Source: Zobellia galactanivorans
GTDB taxonomy: Bacteria > Bacteroidota > Bacteroidia > Flavobacteriales > Flavobacteriaceae
Assembly: GCF_000973105.1 (NCBI RefSeq)
Contig: NC_015844.1
Span: 3,468,501-3,532,500 of the forward strand
DNA: 64,000 bases
Direction: 5' to 3'
The position numbers and the translations under genes were made by a program. This document shows, piece by piece, positions 1 through 14,402 of this stretch (its first letter is position 1; each line of letters opens with the position of its first letter). The notes under the pieces are model-generated. The model searched no databases. It saw only the letters and a program-made list of their open reading frames with translations, and was not told the DNA's origin.

Positions 1-1045
1 CCAACACCCGTTCTTTGCCCCGTGATTCAAAATCAAGGTCGGGTTCGTTCTTGACGTCCCAAGCAATAATGGCCTTGTGGTCTTTTAGGGATTCTACCAC
101 TTGCTCCACATGGCGGTTGGTCATCGTCCAATCGTTGATGCTGTAATTCCCATAAAAATCAAAGAGGGTAGGCATGATGTCCAATCCGTTTTTTTCGGCC
201 ATATCAAGGGTCAGTTTTACTTTTTGTATTTTTTCTTGATCCACATGTTCTTTCCCGAAAGATTCGTACGGAATGAAAATACGTAGGCTATTGATGCCCA
301 TTTTGGCCATGAGCTTAAAGTCATGTTCAATTATTGAGATGTCGAATTTATCCCCGAACATATCCCAAGGGGTGTTTTGAGGGTAGTAGTTAATTCCCTT
401 AAAATGAAAATTTTTAAGGTTTTGCACCTTCGGGATGGTCTGTTTTTCCGTTTTGGGCAAGGTGTTTTCTACCAAATGGCGCACCCTCCAAAAGCCATCT
501 TCCAAGAGCAGCATTACCTTGTAATCGGACAATAGTTTTCGTTTGGTGACCAAGGTTTCGTTTTGGTAGACTTCTTCATAGGCCGAGACGTTCTTATCGG
601 TGAAGACCACAAGCTTACCATCGGTACTGTAAAATTCCAATTTGGGGTGATGTTCAAGTGTGGTGGTCTGTAGGGTAACCTTATTTTTTAGGTTGAGCTC
701 GGTAATCTTAAAAAGTTCGGTACGCATACTATCGGTATAGTAGTCGGCCACGCCATAGGGAAGGTTGTTGGCATAGGCGGCGTTACGCACCTGCCAGGCA
801 CTTAGGTAATCGCGTTCTATTTCGCCCAAGGTTTGTGTTTCCATGGGACGGCCTTCGTTTTGGGCAATTTCCCATTGCACTTTAGGCAGGTAGGAGGCGG
901 ATATTTCCTCGTGCAGGTGCAACATTGATGTACGATCCGCACCGGTGTTCAAATAGGTCAATGCGCTAGTGACCCCGAATAGGATGAGGGCGTTAAGGGC
1001 CAAAAACGTGACCAGTAGGAAAATACGATATAGGTTTCGGTTCAT
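1..1045 (-). CDS. Membrane-anchored glycoside hydrolase-like TIM-barrel protein, C-terminus outside window
   Basis: The reading frame is open from an ATG at 1045 to the window edge (348 codons), so the C-terminus is missing. Residues about 6-28 form one hydrophobic segment, an inner-membrane anchor or uncleaved signal. Residues about 55-200 look like an NTF2-type domain, and from about 215 on comes a (beta/alpha)8 glycosidase pattern. It includes the GINYYPQNTPWDMFG and SLRIFIPYESFG strands and AWDVKNEPDL, whose Glu (about 334) fits the acid/base of clan GH-A (GH5-like) enzymes. The start lies 2 bp after the stop of the lipoprotein gene, so it is the third gene of an operon with the two genes to its right. 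Inferred role: trimming or transfer of a polysaccharide made by the cluster. The exact GH family cannot be fixed from half a barrel. Confidence 0.75.
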   Translation of the reverse strand, partial: MNRNLYRIFLLVTFLALNALILFGVTSALTYLNTGADRTSMLHLHEEISASYLPKVQWEIAQNEGRPMETQTLGEIERDYLSAWQVRNAAYANNLPYGVADYYTDSMRTELFKITELNLKNKVTLQTTTLEHHPKLEFYSTDGKLVVFTDKNVSAYEEVYQNETLVTKRKLLSDYKVMLLLEDGFWRVRHLVENTLPKTEKQTIPKVQNLKNFHFKGINYYPQNTPWDMFGDKFDISIIEHDFKLMAKMGINSLRIFIPYESFGKEHVDQEKIQKVKLTLDMAEKNGLDIMPTLFDFYGNYSINDWTMTNRHVEQVVESLKDHKAIIAWDVKNEPDLDFESRGKERVL

Positions 1046-1047
1046 TT

Positions 1048-2277
1048 TCATTTTAGTGCTACTGATTTTGTCTTGGTTATACCCGCTGTTTTGATCAATA
1101 ATAGATAGGTGTCGTTCGGGTAGAAATCCCGAGAGAGTTCAAATTGACCTTTGCCTTGCATCGATGAGGTTCTGAGTAGGTCTAAAATGTTGCCTTTATT
1201 GTCTTTGACGGTCAACGAAATGGGCATGCCGTCAGGTACCAATTGGTTCATAAAACTTTTTAGCGGCCCCACGGAGATGCTTCTATGGTCTTCGGAGAAC
1301 CGTAGGTTGTAATCGGTTACCGAAGCCTTGAAGTCAACTTTTATAAGCTTGCTTTTGGCCGCACCCGTTACAAAGGCTTCTATAGACCATGAGGCTTGGT
1401 GTTCTGGGTGTAAAAGCCGTGCTTGGGCCATGCCGTTTAGAGTGGTACCCTGTGCTTTTAGTTTGGCCCCTTTCTCATCGGTAATGATAAAGGATACCAA
1501 GGTGCCATCACTTACTATATTTCCGTAAGTGTCCTTAAGAATGCTGCTTTTAAAGGTGATGACCTGGTTGCCATCGGCATATTCGTGGTTTCGCTCATAG
1601 GAAGTGGTAAAATCTATAGGGTTTGCAGGGTATACGATGGTGGTGAATTCCTTGGAGTCGGTTTCGTTACAAGCTGCGGAAATCAGCATACGTCCCGATT
1701 TTGTCGGAGGCCGTACCTTTGACCATGCCATGAGGTTCTTGGTAAATAATTCGCTTTCGGATTGACGGTCTTGGAATTGGATTTTGCTAAAAACCGATGT
1801 GCTGTCGTTTAGCGGATTGTCATAAATGTCGGTCGGCACCATAACGAACATGGCGTAATCCTCAGGGCCTGCAGTAAGGCTTCTTGGGCCTAAGTACGAT
1901 TCTAGGAACGTGCCTTTCCTAGGGTTGATATGGATGTTGACCGTGCCGTTCATTTTCTCTTCGGAATCGGAGAACAACGACCAATAACAGGGGCCCGATT
2001 TTTCATGGAAGTTCTTGGGAATGGAAAATTGAAGGATGCCATCGCTAAACGAAGGGCTAAGGATGGTGGTACCTATGGCATTTCTGACCGCAAGGACAGC
2101 ATTTGATTTTCCGGAAGTTTTAAAGTCTAGCGAGAAGGCTTCCCCCGCGGTAAAAATTTGTTTTTCGCTGAGCAGCTCAAAGGTGGCATTCGACTTTTCT
2201 GTTTTCTCGGGATGTTTGGAACATCCGAAGAAAAGCGTCGAAATAAGAACACAGATATGTAGAAGATGCCTTGTCAT
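1048..2277 (-). CDS. Lipoprotein with Ig-like (invasin/Big_1-type) domain
   Basis: A 409-residue protein with a lipoprotein signal ending in LFFGC (Cys19), so it should be lipid-anchored and face the periplasm or the outside. The body is all-beta. Residues about 225-325 resemble a bacterial Ig-like domain (DTYGNIVSDGTLVSF, then a GMAQARLLHP strand). No catalytic motif is seen. The ATG overlaps the stop of the upstream membrane-protein gene by 4 bp (ATGA), and the glycosidase-like gene follows 2 bp later, so the three are translationally coupled. Inferred role: adaptor or scaffold for the neighbouring polysaccharide enzymes. The family was not recognised with certainty. Confidence 0.7.
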   Translation of the reverse strand: MTRHLLHICVLISTLFFGCSKHPEKTEKSNATFELLSEKQIFTAGEAFSLDFKTSGKSNAVLAVRNAIGTTILSPSFSDGILQFSIPKNFHEKSGPCYWSLFSDSEEKMNGTVNIHINPRKGTFLESYLGPRSLTAGPEDYAMFVMVPTDIYDNPLNDSTSVFSKIQFQDRQSESELFTKNLMAWSKVRPPTKSGRMLISAACNETDSKEFTTIVYPANPIDFTTSYERNHEYADGNQVITFKSSILKDTYGNIVSDGTLVSFIITDEKGAKLKAQGTTLNGMAQARLLHPEHQASWSIEAFVTGAAKSKLIKVDFKASVTDYNLRFSEDHRSISVGPLKSFMNQLVPDGMPISLTVKDNKGNILDLLRTSSMQGKGQFELSRDFYPNDTYLLLIKTAGITKTKSVALK

Positions 2278-5200
2278 TTCGGATTGCCTATATAACTGTT
2301 CAACTCAAATTTTAAGAATTCAAAACCGTCTCCCGAATAGGGTTGTAGTTGGTCTTGACTATGGGATATGTTTCTGTCGGGAAACACCTTTTTTCCGATT
2401 TCGGAATTGGGACTGCCGTTTACGAAGCAGTTTGTAAGACTGCTGTTTATGATTTTAATATCCGATAAAGACGCTACTTTGTATTCAAAGAAACGTTTCC
2501 TTTGAATGCGCACCCCATCGGTCAAGAATTTGTGTTCGACCCAAATGAGTTCTTGGTTTTTATCGTAATACGAAATTAAAAGCTGGGGAATGGTCACCTC
2601 TTGAATGCCCGAGTTAAAAAGGGTACCGCTTATTTTATCATCTTCAAAAACCAGCTCTTGCAGGCTTACTTGTTTATAGAGATCGGTGTTGGCCACATTT
2701 CCCGCACATTGCAGGTTGAACTTTGTGGGTTGTTCATCGAAGGTCATTGGGGTAAACTGGTCTGGGTCAAAGGTAGGGGGCAAGGTGTCTTTGGTAGATG
2801 ACCAGGCAATACCTTCAAAGTCTATTCTAAAGGTAGTGGTCTCCTTGGGCATCAATTTATGCTTGGCTACGTCTTTCGCGTTGTAAGTGGCCAGTTCTTT
2901 GTTCTGGTCATTGTACAGCGTACCCTTTATAACCACATCCGCAGGAACATGGTCTACGTTCTGAAGCTCGCCGATAATGCTGTAGCTCCCTTGGTATTGT
3001 ACAAGCCGGGCCTTTAGCACTTCAAGAACGGGTTGTTTTAGAACGTCTTCATGATGGGTCTGCTGGGTAGTGATCTTTCGTCGACCGTGGTTGAAAAAAG
3101 TGGTGTTGTTCGAAGTGAACAATTGGTCGGGCGGTAGGTCGTTGTCTAGGGATGAAGGCTCGATATACCATTTTCCCTTCTTTTTGATAAGGCTGTGGTA
3201 GTAGTCTTTGTGAATGCTCTCAAGGGGAGTGATCCATCTTGTGGCCGCCTTTACCCGGGCACTGGTATCATTTTGCCGTAAAAATTCGATGCCTAAGGAA
3301 TCGAGTTTGGCGTAGGAACTGAGAATGCCATCGGTGACGGAAACCTCAAGCATATACTGGGCAATGGTTTTATCGCTATCGGGATTCAAAAATGAATAGG
3401 CCTTGTTGAATTCCTTGAAGTCAAGAGCGTCATAGTAGGCTTCGACCACGTTTGAGGGGGCTACCTGATCTACGTTTTTGATGTAGAAAAGATAAGTGCC
3501 ATAGCCCAATACGATCAGTAGTATGAAGGCCCAGATATGATTGATGACAATCAATCGTTTTGGGAAGTTGTTGTGGTCGATGGCGTATTTTACGAACTCG
3601 CCCTGGGGTAGGGGCTTTAGTTTTAATGCCCTGACCCATATCCATTGAATGTTGATGACAAAGGCCAGTAAGACCGTAAGAATGGGAATGATGCCCCACA
3701 TGAGCTTTAGGGCCACATGTACGTCTTCTTTGGGCATAATGGTAGGGAATGGCGGTACGTTCAGTTTTTCCCAAACCATAATACCGTTTTCCAATTGTTG
3801 TAGGCGTTGCCATCCGCAGAAGTAGAGAATGGGGTCGTAGAATTTGTCGTTTGAGAAGATGTATTTCAGATTGTATTTTTCCGGTACGGTCAAGAATTGT
3901 TGTAAAGAGCCGATGCCCTCAACGCCTCTAAATTTTGAATTTTCAAGGCGTTCAATGGCCCTGGTCGTCAGTTCGGGCAGCCGCCGTGCGGAGTGGTAAT
4001 TGCCGTCTACCGTCATGGCCTGGGTCTGGGCCGAAAGCCAGGCCATTTGATCGCCGAAGCCCAAAGGTAGGTAGCGCCAGTGGTCGTGCGAATCTTGGCT
4101 TAAAAAATTGACAATGGGCTGCATCTTTATTTTCTGCGGCTGTGATGGCCTAAAATAGCCTAGGCTCATGGTAAAGATGACCATGAAAAGCATACCGCCC
4201 ACAATAAGGCCTCCCAAAATACGATGGTAGACACGGCCCCAATTTTCCTGAATACGGTCTTTTAGGTCGCCTTCTACCATCCGGTAGGCGAACTCGCCAA
4301 AAAGCGGTAGCGCCATAATGGTGGCCCAGAGCGTAAAGCGGTCTAGGGTCAATATATTAAAAGCCGTTTCGCCGAGCAGTTTCAGGGGTAGGGGGGTGGT
4401 TCCTCCGGTTCCCAAAAGGGTCAACATTGAAAACGATAATCCGAAAAAGATATAGCGTCGGCTATAATAACGGTAAAAAAGAAAGGGCAGGATAAATGTG
4501 AGAATCCCCCATGGAATAACGAAGAATACGAGTCCCGATGAGGTTACCTCAAGAAAATTGTCCCTTGAACCATGTGGAATGGGTACTTGGGTAATGGGGT
4601 TTTTCTTTGAATTGATCCAGTAGGGCAAAATACAGGTAACGATAAGGAACAAAGAGGAAAAACCGAAAATGACAATGCGCCAGAACAGCTTTTTAAATTG
4701 TTTAAAAAAGACCCCGAAACGTACTTCCCTAAAGCTGTTGACCTGGTCTCTGGCCGAGTCCATTACCGCCATTCCCAGTAAGGGAAAGATAAAGAAAATC
4801 ATACCAAAAATGGGCGTCACATGATGAGAGGTTACCGTTACGGCAATCAAAGAAAGGCTGGTGGCCAGGTACCTCGATTTTCCGGTTTTTACCCAGAGGT
4901 ATATTTCAGGCAAGGAATGTAAAAGGATAGATAGGCCTATGATACTGGGCAATTGCCCGAAAATATGTAGGGTTTCAACAAAAGTCGATGAAAAGACCGC
5001 CAACAAGGCGGTATACCCGGCTATTTTCCGGTCTCCGGTCATCAATAGACCAAAACGATAGGCCCCCGTTATAAACAGGACAATGCCGATAAGGGCTACG
5101 CTGAACATTCCAAATTTGAGTCCGCCTATATGGGAAAGAATACCAATGGATTGATGTACCAATGGGGGGTAGGCCTGCACGGTAAAACCAGTGTACCATC

Positions 5201-5360
5201 GATAGTCCCACGGCTCAAACCAACTATTGGCATAATGGTCCGCAAAAAACAGATGGATCAGGGCATCATAAGTTGTCTCAAGAGTGAAGAAAATGCTAGA
5301 CCCGTGAAAGGCAATACCTATGACCAGTGCTAAGATCAATAATACATTGGTACGTTGCAT
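2274..5360 (-). CDS. Polytopic membrane protein, GT-C/PTPS-related type, with periplasmic NTF2-like and beta domains
   Basis: A 1028-residue protein. About a dozen membrane segments fill residues 1-590. The first periplasmic loop carries an acidic residue and a histidine (TTYDALIHLFFADHY), as in GT-C glycosyltransferases and in the family annotated as '6-pyruvoyl-tetrahydropterin synthase related' membrane proteins. A further TM segment near 610-630 is followed by an NTF2-like domain (about 645-745, VEAYYDALDFKEFNKAYSFL) and an FxLYD-like beta domain (about 775-865). The likely role is lipid-linked sugar transfer or polysaccharide assembly at the periplasmic face; this is inferred. It is the first gene of a three-gene minus-strand operon, divergent from a flippase and glycosyltransferases, which supports a surface-polysaccharide role. 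Confidence 0.65.
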   Translation of the reverse strand: MQRTNVLLILALVIGIAFHGSSIFFTLETTYDALIHLFFADHYANSWFEPWDYRWYTGFTVQAYPPLVHQSIGILSHIGGLKFGMFSVALIGIVLFITGAYRFGLLMTGDRKIAGYTALLAVFSSTFVETLHIFGQLPSIIGLSILLHSLPEIYLWVKTGKSRYLATSLSLIAVTVTSHHVTPIFGMIFFIFPLLGMAVMDSARDQVNSFREVRFGVFFKQFKKLFWRIVIFGFSSLFLIVTCILPYWINSKKNPITQVPIPHGSRDNFLEVTSSGLVFFVIPWGILTFILPFLFYRYYSRRYIFFGLSFSMLTLLGTGGTTPLPLKLLGETAFNILTLDRFTLWATIMALPLFGEFAYRMVEGDLKDRIQENWGRVYHRILGGLIVGGMLFMVIFTMSLGYFRPSQPQKIKMQPIVNFLSQDSHDHWRYLPLGFGDQMAWLSAQTQAMTVDGNYHSARRLPELTTRAIERLENSKFRGVEGIGSLQQFLTVPEKYNLKYIFSNDKFYDPILYFCGWQRLQQLENGIMVWEKLNVPPFPTIMPKEDVHVALKLMWGIIPILTVLLAFVINIQWIWVRALKLKPLPQGEFVKYAIDHNNFPKRLIVINHIWAFILLIVLGYGTYLFYIKNVDQVAPSNVVEAYYDALDFKEFNKAYSFLNPDSDKTIAQYMLEVSVTDGILSSYAKLDSLGIEFLRQNDTSARVKAATRWITPLESIHKDYYHSLIKKKGKWYIEPSSLDNDLPPDQLFTSNNTTFFNHGRRKITTQQTHHEDVLKQPVLEVLKARLVQYQGSYSIIGELQNVDHVPADVVIKGTLYNDQNKELATYNAKDVAKHKLMPKETTTFRIDFEGIAWSSTKDTLPPTFDPDQFTPMTFDEQPTKFNLQCAGNVANTDLYKQVSLQELVFEDDKISGTLFNSGIQEVTIPQLLISYYDKNQELIWVEHKFLTDGVRIQRKRFFEYKVASLSDIKIINSSLTNCFVNGSPNSEIGKKVFPDRNISHSQDQLQPYSGDGFEFLKFELNSYIGNPK

Positions 5361-5920: not shown

Positions 5921-7189
5921 ATGACCGCCATCAAACTAATGTTGAAGAAAGTATCCCAAGAACAGTTGTTCATGGGGAGCGTTCTTTTGGTAAACGGCGG
6001 CAACTACCTATACAATTTGCTATTGGGGCGCCTATTGGGCCCTGCCGCTTTTTCGGAAGCTGCACTTTTGGTAACCTTATTATTGGTCTTGTCCTTTATG
6101 GGAATGACTTTTCAGTTGGCTACCGCAAAATTTGCGGTTATTTTTTCGGGCCGTGAATGGGATGTATTTAAAAACATCAGTTACCGTCAGGCCAGTATCG
6201 TAGGTCTGGTCATTGGGGTCCTCATTCTTGTTTTTTCAAAACAACTGCAATCGCTTTTTAATACCGATAGCCATTGGATGTTTGTCATCTTCGGCCTAGG
6301 TATACCTATTTATTTTTTTATGAGTGTCAATAGGGGGGCTTATCAAGGTAGACAAGAGTTTGCCAAATTGTCCATTACCTATCAGACCGAAATGTGGAGC
6401 CGATTGCTACTAACCATGATTTTGCTCTTTTTATTGGATATTGAGCCTGGAACATTGGTAGCCTTGGGTATCTTTTTGTCTTTTTTGTTCGGACTTTTTC
6501 CTTCCGACAGTACATCCATATCCTTTAAGGAATCTAGAAAGTTGAGTCCCGATAATGCAAAGCGGGTCTCACAGTTTATCTGGTTGACCGCTTGTTACGA
6601 GTTTACCCAGATTATCATAAACAATAGTGACGTATTGCTGGTAAAGCATTACTTCGAACCTATGGAGGCGGGGCTATATGCTTCATTGGCCCTAATAGGT
6701 AGGGTAGTGTATTTTGTGGCTTGGATGTTCGTGATGTTATTGTTGCCCGTAGTCGTGCAGAAACAGAAAGATGGAGAACCTACAGCGCCCATATTATTTA
6801 AATATGTATCGTATATAGGACTATTGTCGGCCGGTATCGTGGTGGTCTGTTACTTTTTTCCGGAATTGATCATTACCCTAATGTTCGGGGATTCCTATAT
6901 CGCTATGTCTAGTTTGTTATGGCAGTACGCCCTGGCCACATCGCTGTTTGCCATATCGAATATTTTCGCCTATTACTTTTTGTCCCTAGACCACTATGTA
7001 CCCGTAATCCTTTCTGGGGTATTGGGGCTTTCGCAGATTTTATTGGTAGTGCTCTATCATGAGAGCCTTGATCGTGTGGTACATATGCAGCTTATTGCCA
7101 TGTCGGTACTATTGTTGGTGCAGTTGCTGTATTTCGCCCATAAGGAATTGGGCCGGAACGGCACGCCCGAAAAAGCTAGGGAAGAATAA
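5921..7189 (+). CDS. Polysaccharide flippase, Wzx/MATE-like (MVF superfamily)
   Basis: A 422-residue protein with about 12 hydrophobic segments and few charged loops. The N-terminus (LLVNGGNYLYNLLLGRLLGP, then AALLVTLLLVLSFMGMTFQLATAKF) is typical of lipid-linked oligosaccharide flippases. Such proteins move undecaprenyl-linked repeat units across the inner membrane. It leads a plus-strand unit with a GT4 glycosyltransferase (68 bp later) and a receiver-GT2 fusion, divergent from the membrane-protein/lipoprotein/glycosidase operon. No Wzy polymerase or chain-length regulator is visible here, although the GT-C-like protein at 2274-5360 could take part in polymerisation. Confidence 0.8.
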   Translation: MTAIKLMLKKVSQEQLFMGSVLLVNGGNYLYNLLLGRLLGPAAFSEAALLVTLLLVLSFMGMTFQLATAKFAVIFSGREWDVFKNISYRQASIVGLVIGVLILVFSKQLQSLFNTDSHWMFVIFGLGIPIYFFMSVNRGAYQGRQEFAKLSITYQTEMWSRLLLTMILLFLLDIEPGTLVALGIFLSFLFGLFPSDSTSISFKESRKLSPDNAKRVSQFIWLTACYEFTQIIINNSDVLLVKHYFEPMEAGLYASLALIGRVVYFVAWMFVMLLLPVVVQKQKDGEPTAPILFKYVSYIGLLSAGIVVVCYFFPELIITLMFGDSYIAMSSLLWQYALATSLFAISNIFAYYFLSLDHYVPVILSGVLGLSQILLVVLYHESLDRVVHMQLIAMSVLLLVQLLYFAHKELGRNGTPEKAREE

Positions 7190-7256
7190 ATTAAGAAACA
7201 AAAATGAGGGGATAAGCTCCCTTTATGAAATCGCCTTGAATTTTAAGTCATATACT

Positions 7257-8495
7257 ATGAAATTAGCCATTGTAACCGCATATCCGCCCAGTAAAGTAAC
7301 ATTGACCGAATACGGATATTATCTTGTAAAACACTTTAGGTTGCAAGAAGAGGTCACCGAAATTATTTTAATGACCGATAGAACGGATGACCCAAAAGAC
7401 CTTTCCTTTGAGGGCGAGGGTTGTAAGATTACCGTTGAAGAGTGTTGGGATTTTAATAGCTATACCAATTTATGGCGGGTCAACAAGGCGATTAAAACCC
7501 ATAGTCCCGATGCCGTACTTTTTAACCTGCAATTTTTGAAGTTCGGGGACAAAAAGATACCGGCAGCCTTAGGGTTGATGTTGCCTTATATGAGCAAGTT
7601 AAAGGGTATACCCACTATTTCCTTACTGCATAATATTTTGGAACAAGTAGATTTGGACAGTGCGGGCTTTACCAAAAGCAAGTTGCTTCAGAAGATATAC
7701 GGTTTTATCGGTACTACTTTGACGAAGTTCGTTCTGGCTTCCGATATATTGGCGGTGACTATCAGCAAATATGTAACTATTCTAGAGGAAAAATACAAGG
7801 CCAAGAACATTGCCTTGATCCCCCATGGATCTTTCGAAACCCCACCGGAACCTGATTTTAGCTTGCCCCCCGGGCCCAAGCAGGTAATGGCTTTTGGCAA
7901 GTTCGGTACCTATAAAAAGGTCGAGGTGCTGATTGAGGCCATAGAGGTCATTCGAAATAGAAGTAATGAAGACATTGAAATCGTAATCGCCGGAACGGAT
8001 AGTCCGAATACGCCGGGATATCTCAAAAAAATGGAGGAAGTCTACAGTCATGTTCCCCAAATACGTTTTACGGGCTACGTTGCCGAAGAAGATGTGCCGG
8101 TTATTTTTGGCGAAAGCGCCGTTGTGGTCTTTCCTTATACCTCTACCACTGGTAGTTCGGGCGTATTGCACCAAGCCGGAAGTTATGGTAAAGCCGTGGC
8201 CTTACCTGATTTGGGCGACTTGAGCGTACTGGTCCAGGAAGAAGGGTATAGAGGGGAATTCTTTTTACCCGAAAACAAAATATCCCTAGCGGATGCAATA
8301 GAAAAAATACTCACCGATGAGGCCTATAGAACCGAACTGGCCCGGGCGAATTACGAAGCGGCATGCTCACTACCAATGAGTGCTATCGCCAAAATGTATT
8401 TAGATTATTTCAAGGCCATTCAAGTGCAAAAAACGAAAGGGCAGATAATAGACGTAAACGCCATCGGACTAACTCACGAAAAAACAAAAGCATAA
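7257..8495 (+). CDS. Glycosyltransferase family 4-like protein
   Basis: A 412-residue cytoplasmic GT-B protein. The start is the ATG at 7257 (MKLAIVTAYPPS), because a leading G-I-V/T-Y-P-P strand is the usual N-terminus of GT4 enzymes; the longer upstream frame overlaps the flippase gene and lacks family features. The C-terminal half has the nucleotide-sugar domain: VMAFGKFGTYKKVEVLIEAI, IVIAGTDSP, IRFTGYVAEEDVP, VVFPYTSTTGSSGVLHQAGS. The usual E-x7-E motif is weak, with TGSSG and HQAGSYGKA in its place. It probably adds a sugar to a lipid-linked repeat unit for the adjacent flippase. Donor and acceptor cannot be told from sequence. Confidence 0.82.
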   Translation: MKLAIVTAYPPSKVTLTEYGYYLVKHFRLQEEVTEIILMTDRTDDPKDLSFEGEGCKITVEECWDFNSYTNLWRVNKAIKTHSPDAVLFNLQFLKFGDKKIPAALGLMLPYMSKLKGIPTISLLHNILEQVDLDSAGFTKSKLLQKIYGFIGTTLTKFVLASDILAVTISKYVTILEEKYKAKNIALIPHGSFETPPEPDFSLPPGPKQVMAFGKFGTYKKVEVLIEAIEVIRNRSNEDIEIVIAGTDSPNTPGYLKKMEEVYSHVPQIRFTGYVAEEDVPVIFGESAVVVFPYTSTTGSSGVLHQAGSYGKAVALPDLGDLSVLVQEEGYRGEFFLPENKISLADAIEKILTDEAYRTELARANYEAACSLPMSAIAKMYLDYFKAIQVQKTKGQIIDVNAIGLTHEKTKA

Positions 8496-8533: not shown

Positions 8534-9673
8534 ATGAAAATATTAACCATTGACGACCAACAGCTGATTTTGCTTTCGGTTGAAAGGCGATTGTTAGAAT
8601 TAGGATATGAAGTTAAAACGGCCAGTTCTGGCGCGCAGGGAATTGAAGTCTATAACGACTTTCACCCTGATCTGGTTTTAGTGGATATAAATATGCCGGG
8701 TATGTCCGGACTTAAAGTAGTTGAGCATATACGGGTAAACGAAAAATCAGATATCCCGATTTTGATTATGTCGGGCAATACTGATGAAAAAATCATTGTT
8801 GATGGTTTTGATTTAGGTATCAATGACTATATGAAAAAACCTGTGAGCTTAGATGAAATGGCTGCACGGATAAAGAGAATTATAGGTGCGCCCGACGTTC
8901 AAAAACAAGCTGTTAATAGTGATAATGCCCGAATGCTTCAAAAGAATTGTGTGGGTGTAGTTATTCCTTGTTACAACGAAGAAGACCGTTTGTCAGGGCC
9001 AGAATTCAAAGCTTTTGCGCAGGAGAATTTAGGCTATCATTTATGTTTTGTAAATGACGGAAGTACGGATAAAACCCTAGAAGTGTTACATGAACTTCGT
9101 AAAGGGAACGAGTCCAATATAAGCATATATAATTGTGAGAAGAACGGAGGTAAGGCGGAAGCGGTGCGCCAGGGTATCTTACATATGATTAAAGATGAGC
9201 AATTAGATTATTTGGGATATTTAGATGCCGATCTTTCTACGGATTTTAGAGATTTTGACGATTTGGTTAAGACCATTGAAACTTCACAATTTAAGATCGT
9301 CAGCGGTTCCCGCATCAGTAGGATGGGGGCGAACATTACCAAGGAATCGGCCAGAAAGGTCATAAGTATGACCATTAACCTGATCATACAGACCATTTTG
9401 GGTATGCCGTTTAAGGATACCCAATGTGGGGCCAAGATTATGGACCGTGAGATAGCCTCTACTATGTTCAATAAAAAGTTCATTACCAAATGGCTTTTTG
9501 ATGTGGAGATATTTATGCGCATGAGAAAGCACTACGGAAAGGAAGAGGCCAAACGTATCATTTGTGAACAGCCGCTCAAAAGGTGGATCCATGCCGATGG
9601 TTCTAAATTATCTATGAAAGACTCGGTTAAAATTGTTGGTCAATTGGCCAAGATCGCGGTTTCCTATCGATAG
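8534..9673 (+). CDS. Response-regulator receiver domain fused to DPM1-like GT2 glycosyltransferase
   Basis: A 379-residue two-domain protein; start chosen at the ATG at 8534 (MKILTIDDQQL), where the receiver fold begins. Residues 1-118 are a complete CheY-like receiver: acidic pair D7/D8, phospho-acceptor D51 in LVDINMPGMSG, S80 in IMSGN, and K102-P103. After a linker (119-138), residues about 140-370 form a GT2 domain: VVIPCYNEED, FVNDGSTDKT, NGGKAEAVRQG, a DAD metal site in YLDADLSTDF, and IVSGSR, as in dolichol-phosphate mannosyltransferases. It lacks C-terminal membrane segments. Inferred: transfer of a sugar to polyprenyl phosphate, switched by phosphorylation of D51. No histidine kinase lies in the window. 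Stop codons bound a single open frame, so the fusion is real unless the sequence has an indel. Confidence 0.88.
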   Translation: MKILTIDDQQLILLSVERRLLELGYEVKTASSGAQGIEVYNDFHPDLVLVDINMPGMSGLKVVEHIRVNEKSDIPILIMSGNTDEKIIVDGFDLGINDYMKKPVSLDEMAARIKRIIGAPDVQKQAVNSDNARMLQKNCVGVVIPCYNEEDRLSGPEFKAFAQENLGYHLCFVNDGSTDKTLEVLHELRKGNESNISIYNCEKNGGKAEAVRQGILHMIKDEQLDYLGYLDADLSTDFRDFDDLVKTIETSQFKIVSGSRISRMGANITKESARKVISMTINLIIQTILGMPFKDTQCGAKIMDREIASTMFNKKFITKWLFDVEIFMRMRKHYGKEEAKRIICEQPLKRWIHADGSKLSMKDSVKIVGQLAKIAVSYR

Positions 9674-12188: not shown

Positions 12189-12455
12189 AAATGCGGATTT
12201 AGGGTTCAATTCGAAAAGACGGCTACGGCTGATGGATAGAATCGAAGGAATAAAGGGTTTTGTAATTGAATTTTAAAGCGATAGGAAATAATCGGGTTGT
12301 GGGAACCATTATCTTATCCTATTTTCGGGCTTGCATTCAAACCCATTGTAAACAATCCTTAAAAAAGGAAAAGGTCCCGTTTTTATAGATTTCGAATGCA
12401 GCTTTGTACCATAAAAAGGCTACAGGGAATAACCCACGATAAAAAATACGATCCA

Positions 12456-14402
12456 ATGGATGCTACCCGATCATACCGAACGAATTTCTTAGTAAGCAAG
12501 TATATCGTTATGGCCGTTCTTTTTTTAGTTTTTGGTTGCCAGGCGACTAAAACGGATAAGGAAAAGAAAGAAGGACTAAGGGGCCAGAACCAAGAGCTGT
12601 CATCACAACCACATGCCGATGAGGTAGCGGATAATGCCATAGCAACACCCATATACCAACAATGGCATACGGTAGAACTCGATTTTAAAGGTCCCCAAAC
12701 TTCCGAAAATGCTACCGATAATCCGTTTTTGAATTATAGGCTAAACGTAGAATTCAAGCATGCGGAGACCAATTATACCATTAGGGGCTTCTATGCCGCC
12801 GATGGAAATGCTTCGGAAAGCAGTTCCGACAAAGGAAATATCTGGAGAGTTCGGTTTACACCGGATCAATTGGGGAAGTGGACCTATTCCGCAGAGTTGT
12901 ACCATAAAGATAGCATCGCTATAAAAGGCGATATTTCTGGGGCGGAAAAACTTTCTATTTCAAACGCCACGGGTGGTTTTAAAGTAATCCAATCTGATAA
13001 GGAAGGTGTTGATTTTAGGGCGCATGGTAGGCTTGTGGTTTCCAAAGGCTATTATAAGTTTCGGAACAGCGATAGGTATTGGGTGAAAGTAGGGGCGAAC
13101 AGTCCGGAAAACCTATTGGGCTATGTAGATTTTGACGATACCTACCGGATAGCCTCATCCAATAAAGATGGAGAGGCCAGTACGACCGATAAAATCCATT
13201 CGTACCCTACCCATCTAAAAGATTGGAAAGCTGGAGACCCCACTTGGAAGGATGGCAAGGGAAAGGCTTTGGTCGGTGCTATAAACTACCTTGCCGATAC
13301 AGGAATGAATTCGGTTTATTTTTTGACCATGAATCTTTTAGGTGACGGTAAGGATGTGTGGCCTTATACAAAACCCGATGAGTTAGATCGTTTTGACGTA
13401 AGTAAACTTGAACAATGGGAAATCGTTTTTCGCCATATGCAGTCAAGAGGAATGATGTTGCACGTGGTACTACAAGAAACGGAGAACGAAACCCTATTGG
13501 ACGGAGGCGATACCGGGCCTTTAAGAAGGCTCTATCTCAATGAGTTGATGGCCCGCTTTGGCCACCATTTAGGCCTTACATGGAATTTAGGCGAGGAAAA
13601 TGGGCCTGCCGATTGGTCTCCCCTAGGTCAGAACGACGCCCAAAGAAGGGCTATGGCGAAATTTATCAAGGAGTCGGACCCGTACCAACATCCCGTACTG
13701 CTACATACGCATTCGCATGACCCATTGCGCAGCGATATTTTAGACTCGATTGTGGGGTATACATATGTAGACGGACTTTCATTGCAGCAAGACGAAAGAA
13801 AACAAACCGCTGAGGTCATCGAAAGATGGAAAAACAAATCAAGGGAAGCGGGACACGAATGGCTCATTACCATGGATGAAATTGGGAAATGGTTTCAAGG
13901 GGCCGTGCTCGATAGTGAAGACCCTACCCATGAAAGCTTAAGAAAATATGTGCTTTGGGGCACCTTACTTTCCGGAGGGGCGGGAGTAGAGTGGTATTTC
14001 GGGGCCAAGCATCCACACAATGATTTAAATTCTGAAGACTGGCGGCAGCGCGATCGGCTTTGGAAAATATCAAACCATGCCCGTGTATTTTTTGAGGAGA
14101 ACCTTCCGTATTGGAACATGCGGCCCGAGCACGGTTTGGTCAATCTGAAAGATGCCTATTGCTTTAGGGAAAAAGGCCAGGTCTATGCTCTTTTCCTTCC
14201 CAAGACAAAGGAAGCTACTATCAATTTTTTGGAGGTAGAAGGAAGCTATCGGATACGTTGGTTCGACCCTCTCAACGGAGGCGAACTTCAAAAAGGTTCC
14301 ATCGATAAGATTACGGGAGGTGGCATCCGCTCTTTGGGCCATCCGCCCAATACCACGGGTTCGCCCCATGACGACTGGGTATGTCTTCTAAAAAAGATAT
14401 AA
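12456..14402 (+). CDS. DUF5060 lipoprotein glycoside hydrolase (putative)
   Basis: A 648-residue protein, start taken at ATG 12456; it gives a lipoprotein signal ending LVFGC (Cys28). An internal ATG at 12510 would also keep the signal. Residues about 65-155 form the DUF5060 beta domain (YQQWHTVELDFKGP, then GIWRVRFTPDQLGKWTYSAE-like strands). Then comes a TIM barrel with YFLTMNLLGDG, HVVLQETENE and LTWNLGEENGP, whose Glu is a good acid/base candidate, and LITMDEIGKWF, whose Glu may be the nucleophile. A C-terminal beta domain ends the protein. DUF5060 proteins of marine flavobacteria usually act on algal polysaccharides; the substrate is not evident. It stands alone, without SusCD. Confidence 0.8.
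   Translation: MDATRSYRTNFLVSKYIVMAVLFLVFGCQATKTDKEKKEGLRGQNQELSSQPHADEVADNAIATPIYQQWHTVELDFKGPQTSENATDNPFLNYRLNVEFKHAETNYTIRGFYAADGNASESSSDKGNIWRVRFTPDQLGKWTYSAELYHKDSIAIKGDISGAEKLSISNATGGFKVIQSDKEGVDFRAHGRLVVSKGYYKFRNSDRYWVKVGANSPENLLGYVDFDDTYRIASSNKDGEASTTDKIHSYPTHLKDWKAGDPTWKDGKGKALVGAINYLADTGMNSVYFLTMNLLGDGKDVWPYTKPDELDRFDVSKLEQWEIVFRHMQSRGMMLHVVLQETENETLLDGGDTGPLRRLYLNELMARFGHHLGLTWNLGEENGPADWSPLGQNDAQRRAMAKFIKESDPYQHPVLLHTHSHDPLRSDILDSIVGYTYVDGLSLQQDERKQTAEVIERWKNKSREAGHEWLITMDEIGKWFQGAVLDSEDPTHESLRKYVLWGTLLSGGAGVEWYFGAKHPHNDLNSEDWRQRDRLWKISNHARVFFEENLPYWNMRPEHGLVNLKDAYCFREKGQVYALFLPKTKEATINFLEVEGSYRIRWFDPLNGGELQKGSIDKITGGGIRSLGHPPNTTGSPHDDWVCLLKKI

Follow-up and report, generated by a model that had tools for sequence, protein, structure and literature searches.

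In the genome of Zobellia galactanivorans, a single gene joins a CheY-like receiver (REC) to a GT2-class glycosyltransferase domain, and the encoded protein (REC-GT2) is probably a response regulator whose output is the enzyme, in which phosphorylation of the receiver would adjust the supply of polyprenyl-linked sugar for an exopolysaccharide. The genome is one contig of 5,521,712 bases, and the window, namely the whole stretch of 64,000 nucleotides that was analysed, covers its bases 3,468,501-3,532,500.

The fused gene and its conservation

The gene is a single uninterrupted open frame of 379 codons plus a stop (window 8534-9673, forward strand), which starts 38 bases past the stop of a GT4 glycosyltransferase gene. 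The program-made ORF begins at 8363, and the methionine at 8534 is the start in most of the full-length relatives compared. The gene and its two domains are as follows, in window positions.

8534..9673, + strand: REC-GT2 fusion gene, 379 aa; receiver 1-118, variable linker about 119-138, GT2 139-379
8534..8887, + strand: CheY-like receiver domain with D7/D8/D51/S80/Y99/K102 (Pfam PF00072, conservation)
8948..9670, + strand: GT2 domain with D175, D231-A-D233 and the DTQCG and DGSK motifs (Pfam PF00535, PDB sequence and fold matches)

Using Pfam, PF00072 covers residues 3-114 (E 2.3e-26) and PF00535 covers residues 142-309 (E 3.2e-22), both well over their curated cut-offs. Residues D7, D8, D51, S80, Y99, K102, D231 and D233 were all verified at these positions, and no membrane helix is indicated in the protein, for which the top 19-residue Kyte-Doolittle mean is 1.36. 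The Pfam matches, the residue check and the hydropathy scan confirm the preliminary description of this gene as a receiver and a GT2 domain in one frame, with the residues it named and free of membrane segments. A chance ORF as the source of the fusion is ruled out by the Pfam matches and the conservation among relatives. Judged by its sequence, REC-GT2 carries the complete receiver of a response regulator, with the acidic pair, the phospho-Asp, the Ser/Thr and the Lys.

A sequencing indel that merged two separate genes had been considered as a way in which the fusion might be false. However, the fusion is intact and full-length in all 8 same-genus genomes searched (89-95% identity), so it is not an indel, and with its occurrence across family genomes both indel and mis-assembly were rejected. 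A scan of contigs confirmed 498 relatives, and the best 80 loci of these 498 were examined. The whole or near-whole protein is matched in 79 of these best 80 loci, and in the other one (L097) a contig edge cuts the match off after residue 359. Many marine flavobacteria have this pairing of domains; the best 80 loci include Zobellia, Maribacter, Cellulophaga, Arenibacter and Euzebyella, as well as Muriicola, Allomuricauda, Tenacibaculum, Winogradskyella and others.

For the count by genome in the family, a row had to span the receiver and at least the greater part of the GT2 domain; rows with the receiver alone were excluded, as were receiver-free GT2 rows scoring below about 256 bits. The count includes one 296-position copy, from a genome which also holds a full copy, and three genomes whose sole fusion has an altered GT2 site. 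Counted in this way, 62 of the 299 family genomes sampled have the fusion (own genome counted; 2 of the 62 are cut at contig edges). Among 395 genomes sampled from the phylum, 12 have a fusion, and 11 of the 12 belong to the same family. The twelfth (G475) belongs to another family of the class, and contains the whole cassette described below alongside the fusion. Within the genomes compared, the arrangement of receiver and enzyme domain in one chain is evolutionarily stable, as for an enzymatic-output response regulator.

The receiver residues were then summarized over 121 distinct fused rows. Every one of these rows keeps D51 and K102, while 120 keep D7, 120 keep S80 and 118 keep D8. D98, E108 and R112, which we take to be positions on the dimer face of OmpR-type receivers, are kept in 119, 120 and 119 rows, respectively. 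Most of the top PDB matches to the receiver are themselves receivers, from regulators that we assign to the OmpR type. Across 91 distinct fusions, the active-site residues of the receiver are invariant or nearly so, and the linker (119-138) is variable between two conserved domains. By these comparisons, the receiver of the fusion is under selection.

For the GT2 half, ArnC and GtrB are the closest proteins in the PDB sequence search (phmmer E 5.9e-9 for ArnC), with weaker matches to TagF (teichoic-acid polymerase) and DPM synthase. The AlphaFold2 model of REC-GT2 has a mean pLDDT of 82 and a pTM of 0.75, and ArnC, GtrB and DPM synthase fill Foldseek ranks 1 to 12 (E 1.3e-12 to 1.0e-9), at a query TM of 0.42-0.48 with the receiver left unaligned. 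The modelled domain has a GT-A fold nearest to the ArnC/GtrB/DPM synthase group, and sugar transfer to polyprenyl phosphate is predicted for it. In our reading, the DTQCG and DGSK motifs are reminiscent of ALG5-type dolichyl-phosphate glucose synthases. The name “DPM1-like” given to this domain earlier was a fair guess of the class, that is, the polyprenyl-phosphate-transferase fold, but it is too specific, as ArnC and GtrB are nearer and DPM synthase ranks lower.

Several other families were not reached by the GT2 domain. It scores 23.6 bits against PF13641 (cut-off 27), and it falls far under the cut-off of every NCBIfam equivalog model matched: PgaC/IcaA (poly-GlcNAc synthase), which is the top row, 52.3 bits vs 422.3; ArnC, 51.1 vs 529; PpgS, 33.7 vs 370. 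Membership in these three named NCBIfam subfamilies is excluded by such scores. With PgaC/IcaA as the top NCBIfam row, the acceptor of the domain could instead be a lipid-linked glycan or an elongating chain.

The DxD-type metal site (D231 and D233) is intact in 117 of the 121 fused rows, the window copy included, so most of the fused proteins are probably enzymes. In the other four rows D233 is lost, with D51 and K102 retained. These D233-less REC-GT2 paralogues are located at:

L131:9998-11134
L132:9956-11098
L138:4968-5918
L143:5337-6491

The altered fusion of L143 is flanked on either side by a receiver-free GT2 gene of that genome, and the L138 cassette pairs one degenerate fusion with one intact fusion. 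The reverse is seen in two tandem second copies (L162:11186 and L163:9445), in which D231 and D233 are intact and D8 of the receiver is changed to H. Such copies hint at a division of labour between catalytic and regulatory proteins, or at decay. They would suit an explanation in which the receiver serves localisation or assembly, in that its phosphorylation recruits GT2 to a complex of flippase, GT4 and membrane protein or pairs copies with each other and leaves catalysis unchanged, and in which the fusion has turned into a non-catalytic regulatory subunit in some lineages. We regard this explanation as unlikely, since the metal site is kept in nearly all rows, the degenerate L138 copy is short (316 aa) with an altered receiver (D8 to N, S80 to L), and three of the four paralogues (L131, L132 and L138:4968) lie on long branches, where their exact place in the tree is unsure, and may be decaying.

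The conserved cassette and its two forms of GT2

In the window, the fusion is accompanied by the following genes.

7251..8495, + strand: GT4 glycosyltransferase, 414 aa (PF13692/PF00534); conserved cassette gene
5921..7189, + strand: flippase-like membrane protein, 422 aa (PF13440); conserved cassette gene
2274..5360, - strand: 1028-aa membrane protein; helical N-terminal part with weak STT3/PglB-like matches, C-terminal beta domains
1048..2277, - strand: Ig-like probable lipoprotein (called from the N-terminus alone), 409 aa, weak PF09134 under cut-off; conserved cassette gene
1..1051, - strand: 3' part of a GH5-like gene, 509 aa in total, which runs off the left edge (L140:15023-16552; PF00150, PF02836)

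At least one of the membrane protein, flippase and GT4 genes is near the fusion in 75 of the best 80 of the 498 loci, and membrane protein, flippase, GT4 and GH5 are all present in 70 of them; the 5 loci without cassette genes are short contigs or adjoin a contig end. The membrane protein is also found in 59 of the 62 fusion genomes, at most 9 kb from a fusion in 56 and on other contigs in 3. The intact receiver, the polyprenyl-phosphate-transferase fold and the conserved polysaccharide-type cassette around the fused relatives partly bear out the earlier interpretation, in which the controlled step would belong to the pathway of the neighbouring genes. That the fusion lies last in a flippase-GT4-GT2 unit holds in the window, but this is a minority layout among relatives. 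In the 84 fusion copies of the best 80 of 498 loci, the fusion is directly 3' of a same-strand GT4 gene in 15 (5 Zobellia, 9 Maribacter and L054) and is the divergent neighbour of the gene for the 1028-aa membrane protein in 53, and in the remaining copies the adjacent gene is that of the TPR-barrel protein or of the flippase, or no gene upstream could be classified.

Taken by their domains, the cassette genes look like a surface-polysaccharide assembly system. The 1028-aa membrane protein matched no Pfam family, and it was modelled with low confidence (pLDDT 68, pTM 0.56). The Foldseek top match of this model is an OST chain (E 5e-4, query TM 0.21), the other top rows being unrelated PBP2a; an OST-like match would suit a polyprenyl-linked donor, and is only a hint. 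Among its full-length relatives this protein is 55-99% identical, and it is possibly a new oligosaccharyltransferase-like family. Outside the conserved cassette, window positions 12396-14402 encode a protein of 668 aa in which DUF5060 is combined with a putative collagen-binding domain.

A gene for a TPR and beta-barrel protein adjoins the cassette in the genome of the window and in others, and BCSC_C on this protein is sub-threshold (21.1 bits vs a cut-off of 23.5). Using what we take to be the Pel domain names, a Pfam search at E 0.001 gave no Pel-named domain in the cassette proteins (flippase, GT4, GH5-like, Ig-like and membrane) or in the TPR-barrel protein. GGDEF has no match in this genome, and the same search was positive in 8 of 14 known genomes used as control. 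A Pel or Bcs export system controlled by c-di-GMP was rejected on the basis of these three results.

At 14 loci (L120-L127, L129, L130 and L167-L170), the same cassette, or the available part of it, contains a stand-alone GT2 which is 44-49% identical to the GT2 half of the fusion, and no receiver close to the fusion REC was detected in the flanks of these loci. To compare the two forms, a GT2 tree was built with the 51 rows left after thinning near-identical ones, in which 27 fused and 24 free rows are split by one change (support 98/98). The fused GT2s form one group in this tree, and independent fusion origins are not needed for the sampled rows. In a membrane-protein tree made by a quick method from 43 of 46 selected rows, the fused and free states need 4 changes, at least 3 of which are forced by supported branches. 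From the clean split of GT2 and the four switches on the cassette tree, the fused and free GT2 forms seem to have replaced each other inside one conserved pathway. For example, locus L107 may catch such a replacement in progress, as an apparently truncated receiver-free GT2 (222 aa) adjoins the membrane-protein gene there and REC-GT2 is placed with the flippase on one side and a second GT4 gene on the other. This exchange of forms is the best evidence for the fusion performing the same step as the free GT2 with control added, a reading that fits both trees.

Receiver-only ORFs about 52-55% identical to REC were also found beside cassette genes (L133:11157, L134:5157, L136:9965 and L044:12197). 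The one at L136 adjoins a 174-aa membrane-protein fragment, and some such ORFs may be remnants.

The neighbouring relay and the proposed mechanism

To the left of the window, another set of genes is found, followed by a TPR-barrel gene and then the GH5-like gene which crosses the window edge.

L140:6070-12317 (L140 = bases 3,453,000-3,472,900), about 3.2-9.4 kb left of the window start: relay, in the order single-domain receiver, H-NOX, PAS-kinase, FIST protein, second kinase, HPt, LytTR regulator

Its domain content makes this set a probable nitric oxide (NO)-sensing H-NOX/NosP-like phosphorelay; NosP is itself a FIST protein. The Pfam scores are 130.7 bits for HNOB and 146.9 bits for FIST; HATPase is found in both kinases, and HisKA is over its cut-off in the PAS-kinase and under it in the second kinase (19.7 vs 26.9). 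YxSxR, presumably the haem motif of H-NOX, is present in 14 of 15 distinct H-NOX proteins. The HPt candidate has 105 aa, and its His and Lys do not vary across 15 rows (among which one locus is represented twice); Pfam Hpt matches 14 of the 15 members at E up to 10, and the copy in the genome of the window scores 21.7 vs a cut-off of 24.6. When the HPt alignment was run as a profile against solved structures, ribosomal mL48 (best E 0.0074) outranked true HPt domains (E 0.13-0.48), and Pfam was relied on in place of this search.

To figure out how often cassette and relay lie together, we searched the FIST homologue in the 299 family genomes, and a cut-off of >440 bits kept 56 of the 69 genomes matched at 1e-40. 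The cassette membrane protein is present in 43 of these 56 genomes, on one contig with FIST in 38 of the 43 and at most 28 kb away in 37. Among the genomes counted for the membrane protein, G231 has a fragment. Fusion and FIST occur together in 39 genomes, and in 34 of these they are no more than 25 kb apart; all these synteny counts are drawn from related genomes, and hence are not independent. Three fusion genomes (G107, G143 and G147) lack the cassette. The distance from fusion to relay is 7-11 kb in two of them, the fusion and relay of the third lie on different contigs, and the GT2 site is altered in all three. These gene neighbourhoods make NO control of the cassette well suggested, and we hypothesise that this control runs through the REC of REC-GT2.

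The relay is found with 36 of 59 fused cassettes vs 7 of 17 non-fused ones (Fisher p 0.17), which does not support that it tracks the receiver specifically. Because the relay is not receiver-specific, it may act on the cassette via the LytTR regulator, or the receiver may be served by a different kinase. The former route could leave the receiver as a phosphate sink or passenger beside a constitutive enzyme, only tuning the relay which drives the LytTR factor, like REC133, the stand-alone receiver of the relay. The relay indeed has its own single-domain REC and LytTR regulator, and it adjoins cassettes with receiver-free GT2 (L146 and L147). Nevertheless, lasting attachment to the enzyme is not what one expects of a passenger, whereas no receiver-free row falls inside the 27-row fused group of the 51-row tree; the receiver-only ORFs close to REC, seen in 4 of the loci examined, are counted against it too, and we think a sink quite improbable.

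The latter route supposes that the control is real and the signal is not NO, with an orphan kinase elsewhere phosphorylating the receiver and the NO relay lying nearby for another reason. A close FIST homologue is missing from 23 of the 62 fusion genomes, and relay-like kinases (>200 bits) flank 5 of the best 80 of 498 loci, where they are the relay itself, in a search that covered relay-like kinases within 10 kb while the relay often lies beyond that distance. On the other hand, the close linkage of fusion and relay recurs across genera, and it is seen even when no contig has both the fusion and the membrane-protein gene (G107, G143, G194 and one of the two G300 fusions). We consider an orphan kinase a somewhat doubtful source of the signal.

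Our preferred reading, in which the receiver controls the enzyme it is joined to, can be described step by step. Asp51 of the receiver would be phosphorylated by a histidine kinase or phosphorelay, the phosphorylated receiver would alter dimer or domain contacts, and the altered contacts would raise or lower the activity of GT2, or its membrane docking. GT2 would put a sugar on a polyprenyl-phosphate carrier, and the product would feed the flippase, GT4, membrane protein and GH5-like enzyme, by which a surface polysaccharide would be built or exported, with the TPR-barrel protein as candidate exporter (sub-threshold BcsC match). The most likely donor would be the adjacent H-NOX/FIST (NosP-like)/two-kinase/HPt phosphorelay, and the signal would then be nitric oxide. 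A bolder version, which we offer tentatively as one possibility, is that in marine flavobacteria that do not make c-di-GMP, nitric oxide detected by H-NOX and NosP-like proteins as a pair is signalled through kinase and HPt straight to a polyprenyl-sugar synthase, so that an enzyme of polysaccharide production would be the last response regulator of the chain, and that some lineages use a catalytically dead copy as a phospho-controlled subunit of other GT2s.

Related systems and biological meaning

ArnC, GtrB and DPM synthase resemble REC-GT2 in fold and metal-site motif and are its nearest PDB sequences, but unlike REC-GT2 they have no receiver, and ArnC and GtrB carry membrane helices. In REC-GGDEF proteins of the PleD/WspR type, phosphorylation of REC switches an attached synthase which drives matrix polysaccharide, and the REC of PleD is among the matches to the receiver of REC-GT2. 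However, these proteins make c-di-GMP, which acts at a distance, whereas REC-GT2 is the sugar-transfer enzyme itself with a REC.

A response regulator with an enzymatic domain, PorX, is known from the same phylum, Bacteroidota. Phosphorylation is reported to drive REC dimerisation of PorX via a Thr/Tyr pair, and the REC is joined to an APS domain (PMC11320123). PorX is also a REC joined to an enzyme, and the Thr/Tyr pair corresponds to S80/Y99 of REC-GT2. The difference is that the APS output is of phosphodiesterase type and tied to type IX secretion, not a glycosyltransferase (PMC11320123). Given the conserved receiver and the precedent of PorX, phosphorylation-driven REC dimerisation is, by analogy, a reasonable model for REC-GT2.

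REC-glycosyltransferase fusions of the MTH_548 type were reported in Methanobacteriaceae, and that census calls them enzymes under environmental control (PMC5847659). Like REC-GT2, they contain receiver(s) and a GT2-class glycosyltransferase in one protein, but as described there they are archaeal, with a BcsA-like GT of PF13641 and one or two RECs (PMC5847659). In contrast, REC-GT2 of Zobellia is bacterial, belongs to PF00535 with a score under the PF13641 cut-off, and is located in a defined cassette.

H-NOX and NosP are described as NO sensors on kinases which control biofilm or quorum sensing in other bacteria (PMC6335343, PMC6769237). NO-responsive kinases in Shewanella (HnoK/HnoB/HnoC/HnoD) feed a transcription regulator and an enzymatic regulator and set biofilm formation (PMC6335343), and the NO-responsive kinase pathway NosP-VpsS-LuxU in Vibrio feeds a transcription regulator, also with an effect on biofilm (PMC6769237). 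The enzymatic branch in Shewanella, as given there, is c-di-GMP breakdown (PMC6335343), while the branch proposed here would be a glycosyltransferase.

We also searched the literature on REC-glycosyltransferase fusions, Bacteroidetes H-NOX/NosP, H-NOX networks and Zobellia exopolysaccharide; REC-GT2 was not found in the titles and abstract openings, and it may still be published. The bacterial REC-GT2 family, its cassette, its receiver-free twin and the probable NO relay appear to be new, while REC-GT fusions and enzymatic-output regulators were already known.

The cassettes with and without the receiver provide a natural experiment on the role of the receiver. If the proposed control is true, a two-component signal would set a step of polysaccharide synthesis directly, without transcription or a second messenger, which suggests how bacteria without c-di-GMP synthesis could still adjust their matrix output quickly, and nitric oxide would be tied to surface polysaccharide in marine Bacteroidota.
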